Of a stretch of DNA of 64,000 nt, positions 50,730-62,182 are shown piece by piece. Position 1 is the stretch's first letter, and every line of letters starts with the position of its first letter. A model generated the notes under the pieces. It did no database searches, was not told the DNA's origin, and saw only the letters and a program-made list of their open reading frames with translations. The stretch is taken from NCBI RefSeq assembly GCF_003402535.2, contig NZ_AP025172.1, positions 1,240,001-1,304,000 on the forward strand, written 5' to 3'. Position numbers and translations under genes: made by a program. Source of the DNA: Cupriavidus sp. P-10. GTDB lineage: Bacteria > Pseudomonadota > Gammaproteobacteria > Burkholderiales > Burkholderiaceae.

Positions 50730-52673
50730 CGTGAAGAGAAGTAATCGCGGGTCTTCCGCAATTTGTGTGACGACGGCAAACTCACGCGGAGGACCTTGTC
50801 GTCGTTTTTCCCGCCCCACTACCCACCATTCCTATTTCTGATTAACGTGGGCGAGCCCCCCAACCGCTTCCCGGACACACGAACTCACGCGCCTGCGATG
50901 GCGACCGGACTGGCGGGTCCTGTAGAACAAGGCAGGCCGGTTTAGCTTGGCTTCAACACGCGCAGCCGCAGAAGTTCGATATTCGCGCGGCCATACATTT
51001 GCCGCTTGAGGAGCTTGAGCCGGTTGACATGACCCTCGGTCTGGCCATTGCTCCATGGCAGCGTGAAAGCCGCCCGCACAGCCGGTAAGTCGGCGCGCAG
51101 GCTTTGCGCGAACCCACGCATTTCCGCAGCGTCGCAGCACGACAGACGTTTAAACCATCGATCGAAATGTCGCACACTTCGCCGATGCATGAGTCCGAGA
51201 AATTCCCGCGCGAGGCTGCGGACCTCGCCGACCACGGGTTCGATCTTGCACAGCGCCTGCACGAAGCTCTCGTGGTCCGCGCTCTTCGGCTCCTCGACAG
51301 CGAGCTTTCTCCATCCGACAAGCCATCCGAACACGCGCCGAGCCGACGGGCACGGCATCGTACGCACGGGTACTTGGACAAGCGGTGCCTTGCCCTGCGG
51401 AAAGAGAAGGCGGGCCACGCAACTCTGCACGCAGGCGGGACTGCCCTTATAGCCTCGCTGCTTGAGTTCTCGCACAATCAGATCAGGAAAGCGACAGCCC
51501 TGGGCGATTCGTTCCTCGATATAGTCGCGATAGGGATCCAAAGGCGTAGGACCCCGAGCCCAGGGCGTGCGCTCGGGGAATGCCCCCGCGTGGACGAACT
51601 TCTGCACGGTTGCTTTGCTGATTGAGAGTTCGCGCGCGATTCCTTTGAGCGTGCCGCCCTGGGCGCGCAGTGCCATCACCCGCTCGTAGAGCGCCACCCG
51701 CGTGGCGCGTCGCTGATCGCTCAGGCGCTGCCATGACCGGAGTGAGTTGTGGCTCAGCACCCCCTGCCGGCCTTGGGTCACGCTGCCGACCTCTATTTGC
51801 TGCGCGGCTTGGCGCAGTTGTGGCCCGAGTCGGTAAAGGAGCCTCTCGACGTTGTCGCGCAGGTTGCTCAGCAGATGCCAGCGATCCGAGACTTGCTTGG
51901 CTGCCGGCAGCGCGAGGTCGACCGCTTCGGAATAGGTCCCGGCCCGGTCCCTGGCGACGATCTCGATCGATGGGTGCGCACGCATCCACGCAGCCACCGC
52001 AATGGCGTCCCTACCGGCGAACACTTCGATCGGCTCACGTCGCTCCAGATCGACGATGATTGTTCCGTACTGGTGACCGCGCGCGATCGCCCAGTCATCG
52101 ATGCCGACGACCCGCGGACGTGGTTTGCGCTTGCGCCCAGAAGCTCTTCGCAACTCCCGCAGCACGGTGTCGGCACTGGTGCGCAAGCCCAAGGCGTCAG
52201 CAACCCGGGCGGCCGCCTCACCACCGAGGGCGTGGCCCAGCGCGTGTAGCGCCTGAGCTTGCGATCGCGTACGACGCTGATACCGACCGGCCAAGGCGTG
52301 GATGTTCTCGACAAACGTACGACGGGGACAATTGGCGTTCGTACATTTGAAGCGACGCACCTCAATAGCGAGAATGACCCGCTGCTCGAGCATCGGACGT
52401 TCTTCCAGTCTGCGCACATAGCGGCCGTGGATTCGGTGACTCCAACGATGGCAGCCAGGACAACGTGCCGCGCGAACCGTACTACAGGCTTTGACAGTAA
52501 TGGTCTCCCCGCACGCATCGCTGGAGACGACGCGCTTACCCACACGGGCGAGAATACGATCAATCCCACCGAGAACTTGCCTCATGGTAACGATCAACGT
52601 ACGGCCAAATCGGCCAGCCCTCGACTCGGCCGTCAAACAAAGTGCGGGAGACCCGCGATTACTACACTTCACG
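50730..52673 (-). mobile_element. ISL3-family element, copy A
   Basis: Inverted ends lie at about 50730-50771 and 52632-52673. The inner part starts GGGTCTTCCGCA on the left and GGGTCTCCCGCA on the right, extending outward as AGTAATCGC. One transposase gene fills the element. Its right end directly joins copy B, whose own left terminal repeat is missing. Confidence 0.8.
50942..52585 (-). CDS. ISL3-family transposase, copy A
   Basis: From ATG 52585 the protein has 547 residues. It opens MRQVLGGIDRILARVGKRVV and has the ISL3 zinc finger (ARCPGCHRWSHRIHGRYV and FKCTNANCPRRTF). The catalytic core starts VGIDDWAIARGHQYGTIIVD and DRWHLLSNLRDNVERLLYRL. An HTH insert reads GTLKGIARELSISKATVQKF, and the C-terminus has LPWSNGQTEGHVNRLKLLKR. 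All blocks are intact. ISL3 transposases move their element by cut-and-paste via circles. Confidence 0.92.
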   Translation of the reverse strand: MRQVLGGIDRILARVGKRVVSSDACGETITVKACSTVRAARCPGCHRWSHRIHGRYVRRLEERPMLEQRVILAIEVRRFKCTNANCPRRTFVENIHALAGRYQRRTRSQAQALHALGHALGGEAAARVADALGLRTSADTVLRELRRASGRKRKPRPRVVGIDDWAIARGHQYGTIIVDLERREPIEVFAGRDAIAVAAWMRAHPSIEIVARDRAGTYSEAVDLALPAAKQVSDRWHLLSNLRDNVERLLYRLGPQLRQAAQQIEVGSVTQGRQGVLSHNSLRSWQRLSDQRRATRVALYERVMALRAQGGTLKGIARELSISKATVQKFVHAGAFPERTPWARGPTPLDPYRDYIEERIAQGCRFPDLIVRELKQRGYKGSPACVQSCVARLLFPQGKAPLVQVPVRTMPCPSARRVFGWLVGWRKLAVEEPKSADHESFVQALCKIEPVVGEVRSLAREFLGLMHRRSVRHFDRWFKRLSCCDAAEMRGFAQSLRADLPAVRAAFTLPWSNGQTEGHVNRLKLLKRQMYGRANIELLRLRVLKPS

Positions 52674-54451
52674 CCTGCGATCGCGACCGGACTAAGCGAG
52701 TCCAAAAGGACAAGGCAGGCCAATTTAGTTCGGCTTCAACACGCGCAGCCGCAGAAGGTCGATATTCGCGCGGCCATACATTTGGCGCTTGAGGAGCTTG
52801 AGCCGGTTGACATGACCCTCGGTCTGGCCATTGCTCCATGGCAGCCTGAAGGCCGCCCGTACAGCCGGTAAGTCGGCGCGCAAGCTTTGCGCGAATCGAC
52901 GCATTTCCACAGCGTCGCAGCACGACAAACGTTTCAACCATCGATCGAGATGTCGCAGACTTCGCCGATGCATGAGTCCGAGAAATTCCCGCGCGAGGCT
53001 GCGGACCTCGCCCACCACAGGTTCGATCTTGCACAGCGCCTGCACGAACCGCTCGTGGTCCGCGCTCTGTGGCTCTTCGACAGCGAGCTTTCTCCATCCG
53101 ACAAGCCATCCGAACACGCGCCGGGCCGACGGAATTGGCATCGTTTGCACGGGCTTCTGGACATGCGGCGTCTTGCCCAGCGGAAAGAGAAGGCGGGCCA
53201 CGCAACTCTGCACGGTGGCGGGACTGCCCTTATAGCCTCGCTGCTTGAGTTCTTGCCAGATTAGTTCAGGAAAGCGACAGCCCTGGAGGATTCGTTCCTC
53301 GATATAGTCGCGATAGGGATCCAAAGGCGTCGGACCCCGCGCCTTGGGTGCTCGCTCGGGGAATGCCCCCGCGTGGACGAACTTCTGCACTGTTACATCG
53401 CTGATTGAGAGTTCGCGTGCGATTCCTTTGAGCGTGCCGCCCTGGGCGCGTAGCGCCATCACCTGCTTGTACAACGCCAGCCGCGTGGCGCGTCGCTGAT
53501 CGCTCAGACGCTCCCATGACCTGAGTGAGTTGAAGCGGCTTAGTCCGCCGCCCTGCCGGCCCAGGGTCGCCCTACTGACGTTTACTTGCTGGGCGGCTTG
53601 GCGCAGTTGTGGCCCGAGTCGGTAAAGCAGCCTCTCGACGTTGTCGCGCAGGTTGCTCAGCAGATGCCAGCGATCCGAGACCTGCTTGGCTGCCGGCAGC
53701 GCGAGGTCGACCGCTTCGGAATAGGCCCCGGCCCGATCCCTGGCGACGATCTCGATCGATGGGTGCGCACGCATCCACGCAGCCACCGCAATGGCGTCCC
53801 TGCCGGCGAACACTTCGATCGGCTCACGTCGCTCCAGATCGACGATGATTGTTCCGTACTGGTGACCGCGCGCGATCGCCCAGTCATCGATGCCGACGAC
53901 CCGCGGTCGTGGTTTGCGCTTGCGCCCAGAAGCTCTTCGCAACTCCCGCAGCACCGTGTCGGCACTGGTGCGCAAGCCCAAGGCGTCAGCAAGCCTGGCC
54001 GCCGCCTCACCACCGAGGGCGTGGCCCAGCGCGCGCAAAGCGCGAGCCTGCGACCGCGTACGACGTTGATACCGGCCTGCCAAGGCGTGGATGTTCTCGG
54101 AAAACGTACGACGGGGGCAATTGGCGTTCGTACACTTGAAGCGACGCACCTCAATAGCGAGAATGACCCGCTGCTCGAGCATCGGACGTTCTTCCAGCCT
54201 GCGCACATAGCGGCCGTGGAGTCGGTGACTCCAACGATGGCAGCCAGGACAACGTGCCGCGCGAACCATACTGCAGGCTTCGACAGTAATAGTCTCCCCG
54301 CACGCATCGCTGGAGACGAAACGCTTGCCCACACGGGCAAGAATACGATCGATCCCACCGAGAACTTGCCTCATGGTAACGATCAACGTACGGCCAAACC
54401 GGCCGGAAATCAAGCCCTCGACTCGGCCGTCACACAAAGTGCGGGAGACCC
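52674..54451 (-). mobile_element. ISL3-family element, copy B (left end lost)
   Basis: The right terminal repeat is at 54429-54451 (GTCACACAAAGTGCGGGAGA...). On the left the sequence after the transposase gene is cut where copy A's right repeat begins, so the left terminal repeat of B is absent. Confidence 0.75.
52725..54374 (-). CDS. ISL3-family transposase, copy B
   Basis: From ATG 54374 the product has 549 residues and is a close paralogue of copy A, with the same zinc fingers, VGIDDWAIARGHQYG core, HTH insert (GTLKGIARELSISDVTVQKF) and WSNGQTEGHVNRLKLLKR end. The middle differs slightly (VNVSRATLGRQGGGLSRFNS). The gene is intact, although its element lacks one end. It could act in trans on the other copies. 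Confidence 0.92.
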   Translation of the reverse strand: MRQVLGGIDRILARVGKRFVSSDACGETITVEACSMVRAARCPGCHRWSHRLHGRYVRRLEERPMLEQRVILAIEVRRFKCTNANCPRRTFSENIHALAGRYQRRTRSQARALRALGHALGGEAAARLADALGLRTSADTVLRELRRASGRKRKPRPRVVGIDDWAIARGHQYGTIIVDLERREPIEVFAGRDAIAVAAWMRAHPSIEIVARDRAGAYSEAVDLALPAAKQVSDRWHLLSNLRDNVERLLYRLGPQLRQAAQQVNVSRATLGRQGGGLSRFNSLRSWERLSDQRRATRLALYKQVMALRAQGGTLKGIARELSISDVTVQKFVHAGAFPERAPKARGPTPLDPYRDYIEERILQGCRFPELIWQELKQRGYKGSPATVQSCVARLLFPLGKTPHVQKPVQTMPIPSARRVFGWLVGWRKLAVEEPQSADHERFVQALCKIEPVVGEVRSLAREFLGLMHRRSLRHLDRWLKRLSCCDAVEMRRFAQSLRADLPAVRAAFRLPWSNGQTEGHVNRLKLLKRQMYGRANIDLLRLRVLKPN

Positions 54452-54524
54452 GTAATCGTGTTCCGCTTATGAAGTAATACAGTTCCGTTTCAAGAATGTG
54501 GTGACTGGGCCGCTGGAAAGGCCT

Positions 54525-55169
54525 TCACTGCAGCAGTTCTGGCAGCAACGCGACAACTTGCCTTTCGGCCCTCATCGCAACAACGAGTTGGCGGCTATGT
54601 CGCTCGACCCGCCCTACCCTTTCCGCCAGCTTCGTGAGGATCTCTCGCGAATGCTCATGCTGTTCGACAACGTCAAAGCCGCTGAGCCAACGCACCACTC
54701 CAGTCAGCGGATGCAGAGGCTTGCACCACAGAGCGCTGGGATGCCGACAGCCGTTCCAGTGCATCGCGGCGAGCAGCCACGCCGCCGCGTTGACCTGAGT
54801 GGCTGCCACCTTGATGGCGGGCTTGTTCGGATCGAAACATCGAACGGCGAGACGAAGCAGCCGCTGTTGGCGACGCGGCACGTTTGCCCACGCCCGGCGC
54901 AGCAATAATCTTGTCAAATGCTCGCTGTCGTGCAGCAACGCACTCGATTCGCCGCCGGCCATTGCCTCGTATGTCCAGTCGCTCGATGCGCGGGTCTGAT
55001 AGCGCCCGCTGTTGGACATAAACGCTCGGCTACCCAGGATCTGGTGCCATTGACGGATGAGCTTATCGCGCTTACTCGTTGGCGGTGGAACTGCCTTGCG
55101 TTTGCGCGGTATCGGCTCGTACGCGGGGTTGGGCTCAGACAGCTCCAACACAAGGATCGGCAAGACCAT
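54525..55169 (-). CDS. Tn7-like module protein of unknown function
   Basis: This 214-residue protein begins with MVLPILVLELSEPNP, nearly the same as the start of the preceding gene (MVLPILVPDLTEPAP). The similarity extends into the ribosome-binding region, so the two starts are duplicated. The remainder (RQWHQILGSRAFMSNSGRYQ, LLRRAWANVPRRQQRLLRLA, AAWLLAAMHWNGCRHPSALW) is basic and helical, with no recognised domain. It occupies the position where TniQ/TnsD target selectors usually sit, but TniQ motifs and Zn-finger Cys pairs were not found. Confidence 0.65.
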   Translation of the reverse strand: MVLPILVLELSEPNPAYEPIPRKRKAVPPPTSKRDKLIRQWHQILGSRAFMSNSGRYQTRASSDWTYEAMAGGESSALLHDSEHLTRLLLRRAWANVPRRQQRLLRLAVRCFDPNKPAIKVAATQVNAAAWLLAAMHWNGCRHPSALWCKPLHPLTGVVRWLSGFDVVEQHEHSREILTKLAERVGRVERHSRQLVVAMRAERQVVALLPELLQ

Positions 55170-55236
55170 GGTCTATACTTCCAACCGCACTATCTGTTAC
55201 GCGGCGACGTGCCCTGACTTTCGCACTGCTTTGGGC

Positions 55237-56259
55237 CTACGCTTTCCGATGGGCGGCCCAGCGTCGCGAAATGGTAGTCCTGCTTGGCGGACTAACACTT
55301 GCCTGTGCGCATCGCTTCCGGATTTCGACGCAGAGCTCGAGAAGGGGATGCACGAGACGAGGCTGTCGCGGCAGCCAGTCGGTAAGCACCTCACTCACGA
55401 TCTTCTCGACCGTCGCCGCTAGACGCGGATCCCCGACCTTGGGACCTGGGTCATGACGTATCAACGCGCTCGCCACAGGATTCGCGAGAAAAAGCCGGCG
55501 CAAGCGATAAATCGTCGACCGATGGACTCCCAGCAATTCGCCAGCCTTCTTGGCTTGCTGACGCGAGAGCGGACCCGTCCCCAGCGGATGTAAGACCCTC
55601 ACAATCGCCCGCTCGCGCTCCGTTGCAATCGTCTCCGGCATGTTCAGAACCGTGGTCTTACACGCCCAAGACGATTTGCTGAGCGGAAGTCGGACTCTCG
55701 CACTGCTCACCGCCTCCGCCGTCCGATGGGCGGCCCAGCGTCGCGAAATGGTAGCTCGGCTTGGCGGATTAACACTCGCTCCTGCGCATCGCTTCTGGAT
55801 TTCGGCGCAGACCTCGAGCAGCGGATGCGCGAGACGACCCTGTCTCGGCAGCCAATCGGTAAGCACCTCACTCACGATATTCTCGACCGTAGCTGCTAGA
55901 CGCAGATCTCCCACCTTGGGACCCCGGTCATGAGGTATCAACGCGCTCGCCACAGGATCCGCGAGGAAGCGCCGGCGCAAGCGATACACCGTAGACCAAT
56001 GGATTCCCAGCCGTTGGCCAGCCTTCTTAGCTTGCTTCTGCGAGAGGGGCCCAATCCCCAGCGGACGCAAGACCCTCACAATCGCTCGTTCGCGCTCCGT
56101 TGCAATGCTCACCGCCATGTTCAAGTCAGCGGGCTTACGCACACGCGGCGATCGATTGAGCGGAGCAACCGGCGTGGCGGAATTAGTAGACGTCCGCGGT
56201 ATCCACAGCTTCGCTGGAGCGGGCTCCGTCAGGTCGGGCACAAGGATCGGCAAGACCAT
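55237..56259 (-). CDS. Solo tandem TniA/TnsB-type N-terminal DNA-binding protein
   Basis: The 340-residue protein contains two consecutive copies (about 130 residues each) of one module: ERERAIVRVLRPLGIGPLSQ..., helix-turn-helix STVYRLRRRFLADPVASALI / STIYRLRRLFLANPVASALI, then NIVSEVLTDWLPRQGRLAHP / KIVSEVLTDWLPRQPRLVHP and a final SRATISRRWAAHR / SRTTISRRWAAHR. This resembles the N-terminal end-binding region of TniA/TnsB transposases, but no DDE domain follows. A strong GGAGG site precedes the start; tnsC ends 3 bp upstream. A role in end binding or regulation is inferred. Confidence 0.75.
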   Translation of the reverse strand: MVLPILVPDLTEPAPAKLWIPRTSTNSATPVAPLNRSPRVRKPADLNMAVSIATERERAIVRVLRPLGIGPLSQKQAKKAGQRLGIHWSTVYRLRRRFLADPVASALIPHDRGPKVGDLRLAATVENIVSEVLTDWLPRQGRLAHPLLEVCAEIQKRCAGASVNPPSRATISRRWAAHRTAEAVSSARVRLPLSKSSWACKTTVLNMPETIATERERAIVRVLHPLGTGPLSRQQAKKAGELLGVHRSTIYRLRRLFLANPVASALIRHDPGPKVGDPRLAATVEKIVSEVLTDWLPRQPRLVHPLLELCVEIRKRCAQASVSPPSRTTISRRWAAHRKA

Positions 56260-56262
56260 GGT

Positions 56263-57321
56263 CTATACCTCCGGCTGGACGGTCTGTTGCGCGGCGACGT
56301 ACCCCGACTCCCGCACTGCTCGCTCCCAATGCGCCGAATCTAGTACCAGTCCTGCACTGTCCCACTGGGGACCGTTCAGTAGCACCGACTCGACTGCACG
56401 ACTAAAATAATCCATGTGGAGTTCTATCGGTCCAGCCAGCTGCGCGACCGTGTGGGCGTTCACGAAGCCATTCCACAGCGCCGTGGCAGATTGCTCCAGT
56501 CTTAAGCCGGCAGCGTACGCGTCGGGATAGAAGAAGGCCGTGAAGGTGCTCCCGGTGTCCTCTGGATAGCGAGTCATATCATAGCTAGCCAGGCAGGTTG
56601 CTGCTTCAACGGCGCCTGTAATGCCTCTGAAGTGCATTTGCTCGATCATGAAGCGAGCGACGATTTGCTCGTCACCAGACAGCTGATATTGCGCCTTCTG
56701 CTCCATCAACTGGGGCTGCCCTACCAGAAAGGTGATCAGGCGCACGCCGTGGTGGGCGAGCTGATCATGGACGTCGCGCAGCCATTCCAGTGCGTGCTTG
56801 GACAGTCGCTGTGCTTCATCGCAAAAGAGAACCACAATGTGACCTGAGCGCATTTGTAGTTGTTCGTTAATCCGACGCATCAAAGCGAAGCGCTTGTCGG
56901 CAATGAGCCTGGGTTGTGGGTCCCTGATGCCAGCGGCGCTCAACAATGCACTGAAGAACGCCCCCTCGTAGTCGGTGCGATGATATTCGCAGGACATCCT
57001 TAGCACGAGGATGTCACCTCGGTTCCTGCCAAGGTGCAATGCCAAATAGTCAATTGCGTGAGTCTTGCCCATGCGAGGACGGGCGTAGATTAACGCGCCC
57101 GGGATCAGTACGCGCACGCAGTGTTCGACGAGGTCGACGAAGCTTTCGATCGCTGCCGTCGCCACCCGATAGTGGCGGCGAGCAAGCGGATGATTGTGCA
57201 CCGTCAGGTCTGCCGGATTCACCGTCGTTGCATGAGGCGTGCGGCTGGCTGCGCGGACTCGGGTCGCGCTGACACGTGCGCGCGGTGCGCCTTTCGAGGC
57301 CGTGGTGGTCTTCTCGTTCAT
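56263..57321 (-). CDS. tnsC: TnsC/TniB-like AAA+ ATPase
   Basis: The 352-residue protein has a P-loop in LIYARPRMGKTHAIDYLALH (variant Walker A), Walker B in HIVVLFCDEAQRLSKHALEW, and a sensor-like VRLITFLVGQPQLMEQKAQY. The N-terminus is basic and unstructured, like TniB. In Tn7-like systems TnsC links the target selector to the TnsA/B transposase. AAGGAG site before ATG 57321. It is 96 bp downstream of tnsB and 3 bp upstream of the DNA-binding protein gene. Confidence 0.88.
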   Translation of the reverse strand: MNEKTTTASKGAPRARVSATRVRAASRTPHATTVNPADLTVHNHPLARRHYRVATAAIESFVDLVEHCVRVLIPGALIYARPRMGKTHAIDYLALHLGRNRGDILVLRMSCEYHRTDYEGAFFSALLSAAGIRDPQPRLIADKRFALMRRINEQLQMRSGHIVVLFCDEAQRLSKHALEWLRDVHDQLAHHGVRLITFLVGQPQLMEQKAQYQLSGDEQIVARFMIEQMHFRGITGAVEAATCLASYDMTRYPEDTGSTFTAFFYPDAYAAGLRLEQSATALWNGFVNAHTVAQLAGPIELHMDYFSRAVESVLLNGPQWDSAGLVLDSAHWERAVRESGYVAAQQTVQPEV

Positions 57322-57417
57322 GCCTGCTCCTTGCCGGCGAGATCAGTTCCTCTTCGCCCTTCATGGCCGGCTACAGTCGGGCCCGGCCAGCGCCCGTTTG
57401 CGCGCGCGCCCCCATGA

Positions 57418-59364
57418 TCAGCGGGAGTACCCCCTGATAATGCGCAACGCCTTGCCTTTAACGGGACCCTTGGCCAGTGGCGAAGGCGGCTGTTCGGGTG
57501 TCACGGTTTCACTTTCAGTGGCGGGAGGCTTTGCTGTCCGGCGCTCGCGCTGCACCTGCGCGATGTCGCTGGCCGCTCTCCGACGCTTTGCGGCCTGCTT
57601 ACGTCTGAGGGCAAGGAAGACCTCGATCGGATTGTCGCCCGGGCCGAAGTCTAGTTCGCGCGCCCGCTTGGCCTTGAAGATCTGCTGGCGCACCCGCAAC
57701 GAATGCGGCTCGTCGCGCCATCTGCCGCTAGCGAACAAGTCCTCCAACATGTGTCCGTCTTCGGTACAGGCCCAGAGCCTTCTCAAGTCCGAGGGGTCAT
57801 AGTGAACGCGTAAACGCTTGCCAATCAAGCCGCTGCTTCTGGCAAGCCGCTCGCTCGTGTAGCGCACGTGATAGAAGGTAATGTATGGTCGCTCACCACG
57901 GCCGAGGTTCCCATGGACGCGGCACAGTACCGGGTCATGCAGCAGTTCCGGATGCTCCCGTATCGGCTTGGGGATCAGGCGCAATCGGATCGCCTCGCGA
58001 CCAATGCCAAGCACATGCCGGCGCATCATCTCCAGTGGGGTGAAGCCACCCAGGCCAGCATGGGGCGTGCCGTGATAGTTCCACACCGTCAGGTGCAACA
58101 ACTCCTCCAACTCCTGGGAGGTGACGAGGAGCCGTAGAGAGTCGGTCGGATCGCGCAGACGTCTCAGCATAACCTGCGCCGCATCCTTTCCTGGTATCGC
58201 CCCCGGCAGCCGTCGCGATAGCGTTGCGGCGATCGTACCAAAGAAGCGCTCGATGAACGGCCGGTCATCGGGCTGATATGCCGGACCAAAATCGGCCGTG
58301 CAGCCCAACGCCTCGCACACGACATCGAGACTGGTGGTCGCCAAGTGCGCTCGCGCATTGTCTAGCCGGATCTGTCGCCAGCAGGCGTAGCTGGTTGGCT
58401 CCAAGGCCTGCGAGACGAAACCGCCGGTAGGCAGCAGGCGCAGGCCCGGCAGCGTGAGTTCGGGGACCTTCGCCGGCGTCACGGCGCGTTTGAAGGTTTC
58501 GATGGCGTCAAAGCGGTTACATTCGCGACCCAAAGAAATGGTGTAGCCCAGGAGACAGCGCGTAGCAACATCGATGATGGCCAGTAACCAGACGCGCTCG
58601 ATCTCATAGCTCTGTTCGCCGCCCAGTGGATCGTTGTCGATCACCTTCAGGCGAACGTCCATCTTATGGGCGTCGAACTCGACCGTATCAAACGCATCGG
58701 CGGATCCACGTTCAGGCAACTGCCGGAGCGCCGAAGCGGGCTTGATCCTTTGGCCGGCGGCACGCGCAGCTAAGTCGAAATCATCCTGCAGCCACCCCCT
58801 TAGTGTGCTGGCCAATGAACGAAAGCCCTTCCACTTCTGGTTCAGCGGATAATCGCCAGCGCCTAGGCCCAATTCACGACAGGACTGCTCAAAGCGGTGC
58901 GCCACCGCCTTGAGGCCCACCAGACGGCCTTTCTCACCGGGCTGCAAATGGACCTTTCTGGTTTCGATCTCTTTACGCAACTGCTCGGCCAGATTACGGT
59001 GACGCTGCAGCAATTGTCCAAAGGCCCCAGCATTTCCCGCTTTGCCGTGCGCGATCGCATGAGGCGCCTTGCTTCGTTCATAAGGCTGCACGTGGACATG
59101 CGGCACCAACGCCCGATATCCCCATGGGCGGCCATCCGGGTGCGCGCTCATAGCTCGACGGACCAGACGCCTTAAGGTTGAACGGTGGATACCCCAGGTC
59201 TCGTAGACCTGCGCAAGAGAGCTACCGCTGGCATAAGCCTCAATCGCATCGCGGCGCTGTCCAAACGTGGTCCGCGCTTCGCTCGTGAGGACACGCTCGT
59301 CAAGTTGAGGCCAATCCGACAGGCGAATTGTGTTCGGATCGATTCGGCGAGACGAGCCGGCCAT
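57418..59364 (-). CDS. tnsB: TnsB/TniA-like DDE transposase
   Basis: The 648-residue protein starts at ATG 59364 with an AGGAGGTG site. An N-terminal HTH (EAYASGSSLAQVYETWGIHR, STLRRLVRRAM) leads to the rve core with Asp in DTVEFDAHKMDVRLKVID, Asp in ACWRQIRLDNARAHLATTSL and Glu in AYQPDDRPFIERFFGTIAAT. A Mu-type C-terminal beta-barrel follows (RVHYDPSDLRRLWACTEDG). The tail is basic and may contact TnsC. It performs 3'-end cleavage and strand transfer. It starts 11 bp after tnsA ends. Confidence 0.93.
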   Translation of the reverse strand: MAGSSRRIDPNTIRLSDWPQLDERVLTSEARTTFGQRRDAIEAYASGSSLAQVYETWGIHRSTLRRLVRRAMSAHPDGRPWGYRALVPHVHVQPYERSKAPHAIAHGKAGNAGAFGQLLQRHRNLAEQLRKEIETRKVHLQPGEKGRLVGLKAVAHRFEQSCRELGLGAGDYPLNQKWKGFRSLASTLRGWLQDDFDLAARAAGQRIKPASALRQLPERGSADAFDTVEFDAHKMDVRLKVIDNDPLGGEQSYEIERVWLLAIIDVATRCLLGYTISLGRECNRFDAIETFKRAVTPAKVPELTLPGLRLLPTGGFVSQALEPTSYACWRQIRLDNARAHLATTSLDVVCEALGCTADFGPAYQPDDRPFIERFFGTIAATLSRRLPGAIPGKDAAQVMLRRLRDPTDSLRLLVTSQELEELLHLTVWNYHGTPHAGLGGFTPLEMMRRHVLGIGREAIRLRLIPKPIREHPELLHDPVLCRVHGNLGRGERPYITFYHVRYTSERLARSSGLIGKRLRVHYDPSDLRRLWACTEDGHMLEDLFASGRWRDEPHSLRVRQQIFKAKRARELDFGPGDNPIEVFLALRRKQAAKRRRAASDIAQVQRERRTAKPPATESETVTPEQPPSPLAKGPVKGKALRIIRGYSR

Positions 59365-59375
59365 TTGGACACCTC

Positions 59376-60032
59376 CTATACCCGCTGAAAGGAAGTCGCG
59401 CCGCTCAGCGGTGCTACCGCTATGTCGGGACTAACGACGCGGCCGGATGCCAACAATGCAAAGAGTGACGCCTCCACACTCGCTTGATCATATTCGGAGA
59501 AGCGCTCAACGATCGCATCCAACGCCCTCGGCTCATTCAGGTAGACCACAATGGCCTGCTCGAGCACAGGGGTACGGAACCGCCGGTAGCTGACGAGGTA
59601 GGGAACAATGCGCGACCAATTAGCGATCGGCACCCTCCAGGCCTCTAGTTCGGATTGATGAATGACGCGAACAGGCAGACCATGCAAAAGACTATCGGAG
59701 CCAGTGTCTTCTTCAACTGCCCGATCGTCGCCTTCCTTGGCATCACGATGCTCAATCAACCAGAACTCCCCTGCAGGCGCATCCCGCAGGCGAATCCAGA
59801 AGTCAATCATTGCACTGCCCGGTCCCGCCACGCGAGCCGGGCGCTCGGTGAAAGTCTCGATCGCAGGATTGGCTTCGACCATGAGCCATGTCCGGTAAGC
59901 CTCATAGCTGCCGAGGCTCAACCGACGCCCAAGCTTTGGGCTGTACAGCTCAATGCGACGCCGCCATCCATTGCGGGCGAAGGCAAGTGGGCGACTGTAC
60001 TGACGTAAGGCATCCGGCATGACATCAGCCAC
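59376..60032 (-). CDS. tnsA: TnsA-like endonuclease subunit
   Basis: The 218-residue protein (start GTG 60032 or ATG 60020) resembles TnsA in layout. IELYSPKLGRRLSLGSYEAY leads to the first acidic region WLMVEANPAIETFTERPARV, then IDFWIRLRDAP and FWLIEHRDAKE. The TnsA nuclease normally carries E...D...QxK; here the last part reads EHR, so the Lys appears replaced by Arg. A C-terminal region follows (VLEQAIVVYLNEPRALDAIV). TnsA cuts the 5' ends for true cut-and-paste transposition. First gene of the module. Confidence 0.75.
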   Translation of the reverse strand: MADVMPDALRQYSRPLAFARNGWRRRIELYSPKLGRRLSLGSYEAYRTWLMVEANPAIETFTERPARVAGPGSAMIDFWIRLRDAPAGEFWLIEHRDAKEGDDRAVEEDTGSDSLLHGLPVRVIHQSELEAWRVPIANWSRIVPYLVSYRRFRTPVLEQAIVVYLNEPRALDAIVERFSEYDQASVEASLFALLASGRVVSPDIAVAPLSGATSFQRV

Positions 60033-60120
60033 TGAAGTAAATCTGGGTCTCCCGCACTTTGTGTGACGGCCGAGTCAAGGCCTTGATTTCCAGCCGAATT
60101 GGTCTACGTTGATCGTTACC

Positions 60121-61989
60121 ATGAGGCAAGTTCTCGGTGGGATCGAACGTATTCTCGCCCGTGTGGGCAAGCGCTTCGTCTCCAGCGAAGTGCAAGGGGA
60201 GATCATTACTGTCGAAGCCCGCAGTACAGTTCGCAGGGCACCGTGCCCGGCCTGCCATAGTTGGAGTCACCGACTCCACGGCCGCTATGTGCGCAAGCTG
60301 GAAGAACGTCCAATGCTCGAGCAGCGGGTCGTTCTCGCCATTGAGGTACGTCGCTTCAAGTGTATGAACGCCAACTGCCCCCGTCGTACGTTTGCCGAGA
60401 ACATCCACGCCTTGGCCGATCGGTTTCAACGTCGTACGCGATCGCAGGCTCGGGCGTTGCACGCGCTGGGCCACGCCCTCGGTGGTGAGGCAGCAGCCCG
60501 GCTTGCCGACGCCTTGGGCTTGCGCACCAGTGCTGACACCGTGCTGCGAGAATTGCGCAGAGTACCTGAGCGCAAGCGCAAACCAAAACCGCGGGTCGTC
60601 GGCATCGATGACTGGGCGATCGCGCGCGGTCACCAGTATGGAACGATCATCGTCGACTTGGAGCGACGTGAGCCGATCGAAGTGTTCGCCGGCAGGGACG
60701 CCATTGCGGTGGCTGCGTGGATGCGTGCGCACCCATCGATCGAGATCGTCGCCAGGGACCGGGCCGGGGCCTATTCCGAAGCGGTCGACCTCGCGCTGCC
60801 GGCGGCCAAGCAAGTCTCGGATCGCTGGCATTTGCTGAGCAACCTGCGCGACAACGTCGAGCGGCTGCTATACCGACTCGGGCCACAAATGCGCCAAGCC
60901 GCCCAGCAAGTAAACGTCAGTAGGGTGACCCTGGGCCGGCAGGGTCTGCGCCGAAGCTCACAACGGTCATGGGAGCGTCTGAGCGCTCAGCGACGCGCCA
61001 AGCGGCTAGCGTTGTATAAGGAGGTGATGGCGCTACGCGCCCAGGGCGGCACGATCAGAGGAATCGCGCGCGAACTCTCAATCAGCCCAGCAACCGTGCA
61101 GAAGTACGTCAAAGCCGGAGCATTCCCCGAGCGCGCACCCAGGGCGCGGGGTCCGACGCCTCTGGAACGTCAGGGGATTCCCCGCCGAAACGCACAGCGG
61201 TCATGGGAGCGTCTGAGCGCTCAGCGACGCGCCACGCGACTGGCGTTGTACGAGCAGTTGATGGCGCTACGCGCCCAGGGCGGCACGATCAGAGGAATCG
61301 CGCGCGAACTCTCAATCAGCGTAGCAACCGTGCAGAAGTACGTCAGGGCCGGAGCATTCCCCGAGCGCGCACTCAAAGCGCCGGGTCCGACGCCTTTGGA
61401 TCCCTATCGCGACTATATCGAGGAACGAATCATCCAGGGCTGTCGCTTTCCTGAACTGATCTGGCAAGAAATCAAACAGCGCGGCTATAAGGGCAGTCCC
61501 GCCTGCGTGCAGAGTTGCGTGACCCGCCTCCTCTTTCCGCTGGGCAAGACCCCGCTTGCCCTGAAGCCCACGATGCAGATGCCCTCGGCCCGGCGCGTGT
61601 TCGGATGGCTTGTCGGATGGAGGAACCTCGCCATCGAGGAGCCAAAAAGCGCGGACCACGAGCGGTTCGTGAAGGCGCTGTGCAAGATCGAACCCGTGGT
61701 GGGCGAAGTCCGCAGTCTCGCGCGGGAGTTTCTCGGACTCATGCACCGACGAAGTGTGCTGCACTTCGATCGATGGTTGAAACGTTTGTCGTGCTGCGAC
61801 GCTGAGGAAATGCGTCGGTTCGCGCAAAGCCTGAGCGCCGACTTACCGGCTGTGCGGGCGGCCTTCAGGCTGCAATGGAGCAATGGCCAGACGGAGGGTC
61901 ATGTCAACCGGCTCAAGCTCCTCAAGCGCCAAATGTATGGCCGCGCCAATATCGAGCTTCTGCGGCTGCGGGTGTTGAAGCCAAACTAA
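60121..61989 (+). CDS. ISL3-family transposase, copy C, with duplicated HTH segment
   Basis: From ATG 60121 the protein has 622 residues, about 75 more than copies A and B. The extra length is an in-frame tandem duplication of the HTH insert. The first copy reads RSWERLSAQRRAKRLALYKE to ELSISPATVQKYVKAGAFPE; the second reads RSWERLSAQRRATRLALYEQ to ELSISVATVQKYVRAGAFPE. The rest (zinc fingers CPACHSWSH and CMNANCPRRTF, GIDDWAIARGHQYG, WSNGQTEGHVNRLKLLKR) is intact. Whether it is active is unknown. Confidence 0.92.
   Translation: MRQVLGGIERILARVGKRFVSSEVQGEIITVEARSTVRRAPCPACHSWSHRLHGRYVRKLEERPMLEQRVVLAIEVRRFKCMNANCPRRTFAENIHALADRFQRRTRSQARALHALGHALGGEAAARLADALGLRTSADTVLRELRRVPERKRKPKPRVVGIDDWAIARGHQYGTIIVDLERREPIEVFAGRDAIAVAAWMRAHPSIEIVARDRAGAYSEAVDLALPAAKQVSDRWHLLSNLRDNVERLLYRLGPQMRQAAQQVNVSRVTLGRQGLRRSSQRSWERLSAQRRAKRLALYKEVMALRAQGGTIRGIARELSISPATVQKYVKAGAFPERAPRARGPTPLERQGIPRRNAQRSWERLSAQRRATRLALYEQLMALRAQGGTIRGIARELSISVATVQKYVRAGAFPERALKAPGPTPLDPYRDYIEERIIQGCRFPELIWQEIKQRGYKGSPACVQSCVTRLLFPLGKTPLALKPTMQMPSARRVFGWLVGWRNLAIEEPKSADHERFVKALCKIEPVVGEVRSLAREFLGLMHRRSVLHFDRWLKRLSCCDAEEMRRFAQSLSADLPAVRAAFRLQWSNGQTEGHVNRLKLLKRQMYGRANIELLRLRVLKPN
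60964..61431 (+). repeat. 234-bp tandem duplication within ISL3 copy C transposase
   Basis: The segment starting CGGTCATGGGAGCGTCTGAG at 60964 recurs at 61198, a period of 234 bp (78 codons). The copies differ at scattered positions, so the duplication is not brand new. Confidence 0.88.
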
Positions 61990-62182
61990 ACCGGCCGGCT
62001 TTGTTCTACAGGCCCCGCCAGTCCGGTCGCGATCGCAGGCGCGTGAGTTCGTGTGGCCACGGCGAGGCTGGCGGACTCGCTTACGTTAGTCAGTAAGAAG
62101 AATAGTGGTAGTCGGGCGGGAAAGACGACGGCAAGGGTCCTCGACACGAATTCGCCGTTGTCACACAAATTGCGGAAGACCC

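Follow-up and report, generated by a model that had tools for sequence, protein, structure and literature searches.

The window, a 64,000-nucleotide stretch of Cupriavidus sp. P-10 (contig NZ_AP025172.1, positions 1,240,001 to 1,304,000), carries a Tn7-like element in which the usual target selector, TniQ, seems to have been dismantled and rebuilt. Minus-strand open reading frames (ORFs) at 54525-60032 encode, in that order, a TnsA-like protein, TnsB, TnsC, a 340-residue protein (p340) and a 214-residue protein (p214). p340 joins a short TniQ leader to two end-binding domains of a Tn402-type TniA; p214 is probably a TniQ that keeps the leader and the C-terminal part and has lost the zinc-finger core. 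The anatomy and origin of this rebuilt module are well supported. That p340 acts as a co-opted selector aimed at Tn402-like transposons is a proposal we regard as evenly balanced; such targeting is plausible, on a correlative basis.

The five-gene operon and its p340-p214 region

The operon comprises the following features, all on the minus strand.
59376..60032, minus: tnsA-like gene, 218 amino acids (aa), named from position and conservation
57418..59364, minus: tnsB (DDE transposase), 648 aa, Pfam and PDB matches
56263..57321, minus: tnsC (AAA+ ATPase), 352 aa, AAA_22 match
55237..56259, minus: p340, TniQ leader and two TniA N-terminal (end-binding) domains, 340 aa
56194..56259, minus: p340 leader (MVLPILVPDLTEPAPAKLWIPR)
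55726..56115, minus: p340 TniA-type module 1, about residues 49-178
55246..55638, minus: p340 TniA-type module 2, about residues 208-338, preceded by the linker KTTVLNM
55170..55236, minus: leftover second copy of the TnsC C-terminal tail (VRKSGHVAA*QIVRLEV*), lying between p340 and p214
54525..55169, minus: p214, probable core-less TniQ derivative with the TniQ leader and a TniQ C-terminal-like region, 214 aa

The five-gene set named in a preliminary description, made from the sequence alone, is real: all five ORFs are present, and C. numazuensis (locus L007) carries them in the same order with 91% (TnsA-like), 91% (TnsB), 93% (TnsC), 69% (p340) and 85% (p214) amino-acid identity. The Tn7-like core is likewise borne out by family matches to a TnsB-type DDE transposase and a TnsC/TniB-type AAA+ ATPase. 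TnsB exceeds the Pfam cut-off for Mu-transpos_C, falls just below that for HTH_23, matches Tn6677 TnsB in the PDB (E 5e-6) and has visible D, D and E motifs. TnsC matches AAA_22 with 50 bits, above the cut-off, and TniB with 19.5 bits, under its cut-off. The TnsA-like protein gave no Pfam or NCBIfam match (E<=1); against the PDB its single sequence gave no match and its family profile only unrelated ones (E 0.9-1.3), and the label therefore rests on position and conservation. In its family (7 sequences) E53 and D77 are invariant, with no conserved lysine downstream of both. Judged by what we take to be the TnsA catalytic motif, the protein may be inactive and transposition replicative.

p340 proved to be a tandem TniA-type DNA-binding protein that lacks a catalytic domain, as previously described: helix-turn-helix (HTH) families are matched twice in Pfam, and neither rve nor Mu-transpos_C is matched. 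Its modules share 62-74% protein identity with the N-terminus of the 541-aa TniA of pHG1, which itself matches rve (below cut-off) and Mu-transpos_C and whose gene precedes tniB and tniQ. Two 431-bp DNA copies, 85% identical, make up the repeat, and the segment between the modules, with its KTTVLNM linker, corresponds to the untranslated leader of tniA read in frame. In a Foldseek search the structural model, which has low confidence (62.6), came closest to ShCAST TnsB and MuA; these took ranks 1-6 (E 0.3-0.7).

Positions 55131-55230 and 56221-56320, which are copies of the TnsC tail and leader, are 82% identical in DNA, and the TnsC-tail copy between p340 and p214, decayed in the window, is still readable in C. 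necator C39 (L017). p340 thus arose at a duplicated TnsC-tail/leader segment, and the remnant points to an origin of both p340 and p214 by tandem duplication.

Beyond the window, p340 has five full-length tandem homologues (P0057-P0061, 353-374 aa; P0061 is from C. numazuensis) and five single-module ones (P0063-P0067, 202-262 aa), all of which keep the leader. A tree of the modules, in which only 7 of 23 inner branches are well supported, places some of them with TniA and hints at reshuffling. The ratio of nonsynonymous to synonymous substitution rates (dN/dS) of p340 is 0.38-0.52 with upper bootstrap bounds of 0.54-0.75; for the window's copy against L007, L073 and L075 the values are 0.41-0.52 (0.62-0.75). 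In the comparison with L007, TnsA, TnsB and TnsC have values of 0.08-0.13 and p214 of 0.33. A chance ORF was considered for p340 and rejected, since it is kept in L007, the frames of its homologues are open and the upper bounds of dN/dS lie below 1.

The TniQ core (PF06527) was not detected in p214 or p340 at E<=1. A search of 5.8 billion proteins returned 26 p214 homologues, and PF06527 is absent from their precomputed domains and from two further relatives that were scanned. The family mostly begins with M-x-LPIL and ends with VALLPELL. In Janthinobacterium J1-1 (L019), TnsABC (TnsC 47%) is followed by a 401-aa TniQ that starts with MRLPVLIVPP; its own PF06527 match lies just under the Pfam cut-off, and 3 of its 30 homologues bear the domain. 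The p214 profile aligns to residues 275-344 of this TniQ with an hhalign score of 37.0 (E 2e-4, probability 46%), compared with a best score of 22.8 among 40 column-shuffled profiles. The leader motif is found in 25/25 TniQ rows, 21/22 members of the p214 family and 11/12 of the p340 family, and in 2/98 TniA-type proteins. The derivation of p214 from TniQ is thus drawn from the leader, the gene position and a modest C-terminal profile similarity, and the shared leader together with that similarity led us to reject the view that p214 is wholly unrelated to TniQ. The preliminary description had seen no recognisable TniQ and had stated that a TniQ fold in p214 would overturn its reading. No such fold was found, in fold searches that were uninformative; the AlphaFold model (mean predicted local distance difference test score 75.6) gave no useful neighbour in a PDB search. 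The statement on TniQ holds for the core and has to be softened for p214: because p214 has the TniQ leader and C-terminal similarity, and the leader is also on p340, the selector seems to have been taken apart, not lost outright. The element is indeed an unusual variant.

Element tips and Tn402-like transposons

The element ends in tips of the form CGTGAAG[AT]G[AT]AGTAA. A search of 60 Cupriavidus genomes for this pattern, made with no reference to Tn402, gave 67 matches in 20 genomes; leaving out 8 matches of the variant CGAGAAGTGAAGTAATGGTG, which was assumed to be unrelated, and 1 that had no locus yielded 58 flanks, 54 of them distinct. Tn402-like transposons contain 14 of the 54 distinct junctions, many more than the background would give, and the target-recognition role offered earlier for the tandem protein is favoured to this extent, by correlation. 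These junctions include 8 of the 29 tips without ISL3 inside the tip, a class that counts one flank (G365:C75) too close to its contig end for the interior to be classed, and 6 of the 25 with ISL3. Two of the 14 (G301:C86) are 130 bp apart in one locus. By clade, 8 belong to TniABQ, an element of ~3.27 kb with ends TGTTGCAGATCG, and 6 to a type whose ends are TGTTGAAG-like and whose repeats differ.

TniABQ-clade DNA occurs within 400 bp of the tip in 8/58 flanks, and at 6 junctions the similarity begins no more than 6 bases in, the cut falling in tniA, tniB, tniQ or the left end region. A Tn402-like terminus within 600 bp faces outward in 12/58 flanks (10/54 distinct) and inward in 1/58; the surrounding sequence predicts 0.6, and across 200 shuffles the count averaged 0.25 and peaked at 2. 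The shuffle comparison is post hoc because the terminus pattern was chosen after the flanks had been viewed. The pattern is one-sided, with one flank Tn402-like and the opposite flank not recognisably so. Among loci with p340, the left tip of the pBB1 element (L075) lies 127 bp inside a Tn402-like terminus, a TniQ remnant lies 64 bp from the tip at L017, TniABQ stands directly upstream of a p340 remnant at L076, and TniABQ is found within 1 kb at L016. Two other accounts of the junctions were rejected: the TniABQ element does not own the CGTGAAG tips, as its ends are TGTTGCAGATCG, and Tn402-like insertion beside pre-existing tips does not explain 5 junctions that cut tni genes and 1 that cuts the left end region.

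Several results weigh against Tn402-like targeting by p340. The remaining 40 of the 54 distinct junctions lie outside Tn402-like DNA, as is the case for the left tip in the window and for the two tips of L007. Flank annotation covered 38 of the 58 flanks, 16 Tn402-like ones and 4 others (duplicates, p214 or ISL3 flanks) having been left out, and took one ORF per flank within 900 bp by coding score, which may differ from the interrupted gene; 28 of the 29 ORFs with a Pfam match are ordinary metabolic or regulatory genes, the remaining one is a group II intron, and 9 of the 38 have no Pfam match. Direct specificity fails for 6 of the 14 junctions since their terminal repeats differ from those of the TniABQ donor clade, and the TniABQ-internal junctions are spread over about 2.9 kb. 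Mini-elements, other short units and ISL3-bearing tips account for 13 of the 14; with 1/14 coming from a p340-bearing element, the enrichment alone does not implicate p340. Tips free of p340 have outward Tn402-like termini in 0/23 and an inward one in 1, a comparison confounded in that most of them come from one Variovorax genome without TniABQ. To these are added the post hoc nature of the shuffles and the modest similarity of p214 to TniQ.

A second recurrent site is the end of an insertion sequence (IS) that we take to be ISKra4-like, struck in 4 flanks (L131, L132, L145, L146) at or near the 3' end of the transposase gene. Separately, TniABQ-type termini recur at L150:5430-9176, in one orientation and the other, and may mark mini-elements of the Tn402-like family.

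Proposed mechanism, alternatives and known systems

As read from the sequence, the TnsC-tail/leader segment was duplicated; p214, downstream, has the leader and a TniQ C-terminal-like part and no zinc-finger core, and p340, upstream, has the leader and two end-binding domains of a Tn402-type TniA. In the mechanism that we propose, the shared leader would dock both proteins to TnsC, and the TniA domains of p340 would bind Tn402-like terminal repeats, thereby delivering TnsC and TnsB there. A probably inactive TnsA would make transposition replicative, and intramolecular events would then leave one-sided junctions without target duplications. More tentatively, and with some doubt on our part, the element may hunt other transposons, using a rival's termini as a landing pad through the TniQ leader and the captured TniA domains, so that module swaps would change its prey. 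TniQ is regarded as the usual bridge from the bound target to TnsC in Tn7-like elements and CRISPR-associated transposons. The family that keeps only the TniQ leader and C-terminal part, with L009 and its target duplication, suggests that the core is dispensable. If the proposal is true, directing transposition takes no more than a short leader fused to an unrelated DNA-binding domain, a simple arrangement, testable and perhaps reusable, and one transposon locates another by that transposon's own end-recognition domain.

It is rather unlikely, in our estimation, that p340 is instead a functionless by-product of nested insertions or recombination with Tn402-like elements, the working machinery being TnsABC with p214 and the Tn402-like DNA being struck as dispensable mobile DNA or as a recombination partner. 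Such a history would fit the severalfold faster evolution of p340 relative to TnsABC (dN/dS of about 0.5 versus 0.08-0.13), with a constraint that could in part be inherited from TniA, and it would fit the several broken copies and the modules that look reshuffled (weak support for those that group with TniA); it would also fit the intact L009 element, which has a 5-bp duplication and no p340, and the repeated strikes at the ISKra4-like end. However, the open frame and the leader are kept in six full-length tandem proteins, the window's included, and the upper bounds of dN/dS stay below 1. As a control for mobile DNA, the same genomes hold at least 101 ISL3 matches versus about a dozen of the TniABQ clade; yet ISL3, although severalfold commoner, lies outward within 400 bp in 4/58 flanks and starts no more than 3 bases from the junction in 2, compared with the 6 junctions that cut TniABQ, and the group II intron is the single mobile gene among the Pfam-matched flank ORFs.

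The layout of p340, a TniA end-binding domain without a catalytic domain, is also that of a dominant-negative inhibitor, and p340 might act as a decoy or repressor that occupies TniA sites on Tn402-like transposons and silences a competitor. Genes of the TniABQ clade, or pieces of them, are also present in the five genomes with p340 sequence (G000, G301, G321, G336 and G375, as we group them). We nevertheless consider a decoy improbable, for it leaves unaccounted for the TniQ leader on p340, the position of p340 between tnsC and p214, and the junctions inside Tn402-like elements. The preliminary description had named recognition of the element's own ends as another option, by which p340 would aid transpososome assembly rather than target choice. 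The modules do derive from end-binding domains, but the element's own ends carry GWAGTAA-type repeats, unlike the TniABQ termini, and TnsB has an HTH region of its own that p340 does not match; this role seems very improbable.

The co-opted selector that we propose can be set beside known systems. Like Tn7-like elements with TniQ/TnsD (PMC10293859, PMC8649781), this one has a tnsA-like, tnsB, tnsC operon followed by a probable TniQ-derived gene, ends with repeats and a 5-bp duplication (here at L009); it differs in lacking the TniQ core. Faure et al. (2023; PMC10293859) describe tniQ/tnsD as ubiquitous in the Tn7 branch, and Benler et al. (2021; PMC8649781) report that, depending on the clade, 73-97% of transposons have tnsD/tniQ; TniQ is therefore not strictly universal, and elements in which none is detected do occur. 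TnsF of the Tn6022 type (PMC10293859) is likewise a selector co-opted from a mobile element, with tandem DNA-binding domains and the catalytic part lost. TnsF is a tyrosine-recombinase derivative accompanied by an intact TniQ, whereas p340 is a TniA derivative with the TniQ leader only; p340 has no tyrosine-recombinase-type Pfam match, and its fold model is of low confidence. One TnsF-TniQ fusion described in the same paper is a precedent for TniQ parts joined to DNA-binding domains; the term TniA does not occur in its main text. Dual TniQ-TnsD loci (PMC10293859) are similar in that their TniQ region was duplicated in tandem and the copies then diverged, and a Tn7-like element of C. metallidurans has two tnsD genes (PMC3384475); here, one copy consists of the leader and foreign domains and the other is core-less. 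Tn402/Tn5053-type TniABQ transposons are the source of the p340 DNA-binding domains. The element falls outside their family, which has TniA-TniB-TniQ, no TnsA and TGT-type ends: here there are a tnsA-like gene, CGTGAAG tips (versus TGTTGCAGATCG) and no TniQ core. The other finding that, by the preliminary description, would overturn its reading, an already described family with this five-gene set, did not turn up in the searches made of the open-licence literature.

Element ends, ISL3 insertions and relatives

The ends of the element in the window are interrupted by ISL3-family insertions, as follows.
50730..50748: left end, outer tip (CGTGAAGAGAAGTAATC + GC), cut off from the remainder by ISL3-family insertions
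50749..54451, minus: ISL3-family block within the left end, transposase ORFs 50942-52723 and 52725-54437
52654-52673: extra tip in the opposite orientation, between the two ISL3 transposase ORFs of this block
54452..54524: left end, inner part with the TnsB-type repeat GAAGTAATAC
60033..60044: right end, inner remnant, with the repeat GAAGTAAATCT at 60034-60044, cut by ISL3
60045..62182, plus: ISL3-family element truncating the right end

The flanks of the left block, GTAATCGC and GTAATCGT, would fit an 8-bp duplication with one mismatch. The outer right tip was not found in the window. Left ends are uninterrupted in L074, L075 and L007, and terminal repeats are present in the ends of relatives. 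The 5-bp duplication, GCATG, was seen at L009 only among the paired tips examined, there being none at L007, L008, L010 or the mini-elements.

In 25/26 ISL3-bearing tips, the ISL3-family IS is found at a distance of exactly 19 bp within the Tn7-like tip, as if hunting such ends, and some units have the form tip-ISL3-tip; the further ISL3 copy in the window (60045) adjoins the inner right-end repeat. Mini-elements of ~436 bp with the same tips occur at L117:8653-9090, L135:9190-9625, L141:9522-9956, L147:9639-10072, L149:9388-9825 (in the window's own genome) and L155:12547-12983, and their interiors have no match to the five proteins.

The element family is rare. Among the 60 Cupriavidus genomes, a closely related intact TnsC is present in 2, the window's own and C. 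numazuensis, and a TnsC search at E<=1e-100 in a sample of 399 genomes of the order found only the window's own genome. Partial versions with p340 or p214 occur at several Cupriavidus loci. At four loci (L008-L011) TnsABC is followed by a p214 homologue and p340 is absent; L009 is a complete 4.67-kb element of this kind, whose flanks, as we read them, may be parts of an aldo/keto reductase gene. At L077:9685-14765, a frame-broken p214 (89% identical) adjoins another TnsABC (31-45% identical) that has a TniQ-like gene of its own, which suggests exchange between elements. The window's own genome holds a second, divergent TnsABC (L081, C4:344000-363900) with a 205-aa protein that is TniQ-like by BLAST and has no Pfam TniQ match; the tnsB gene of this locus is in two parts ~6 kb apart.

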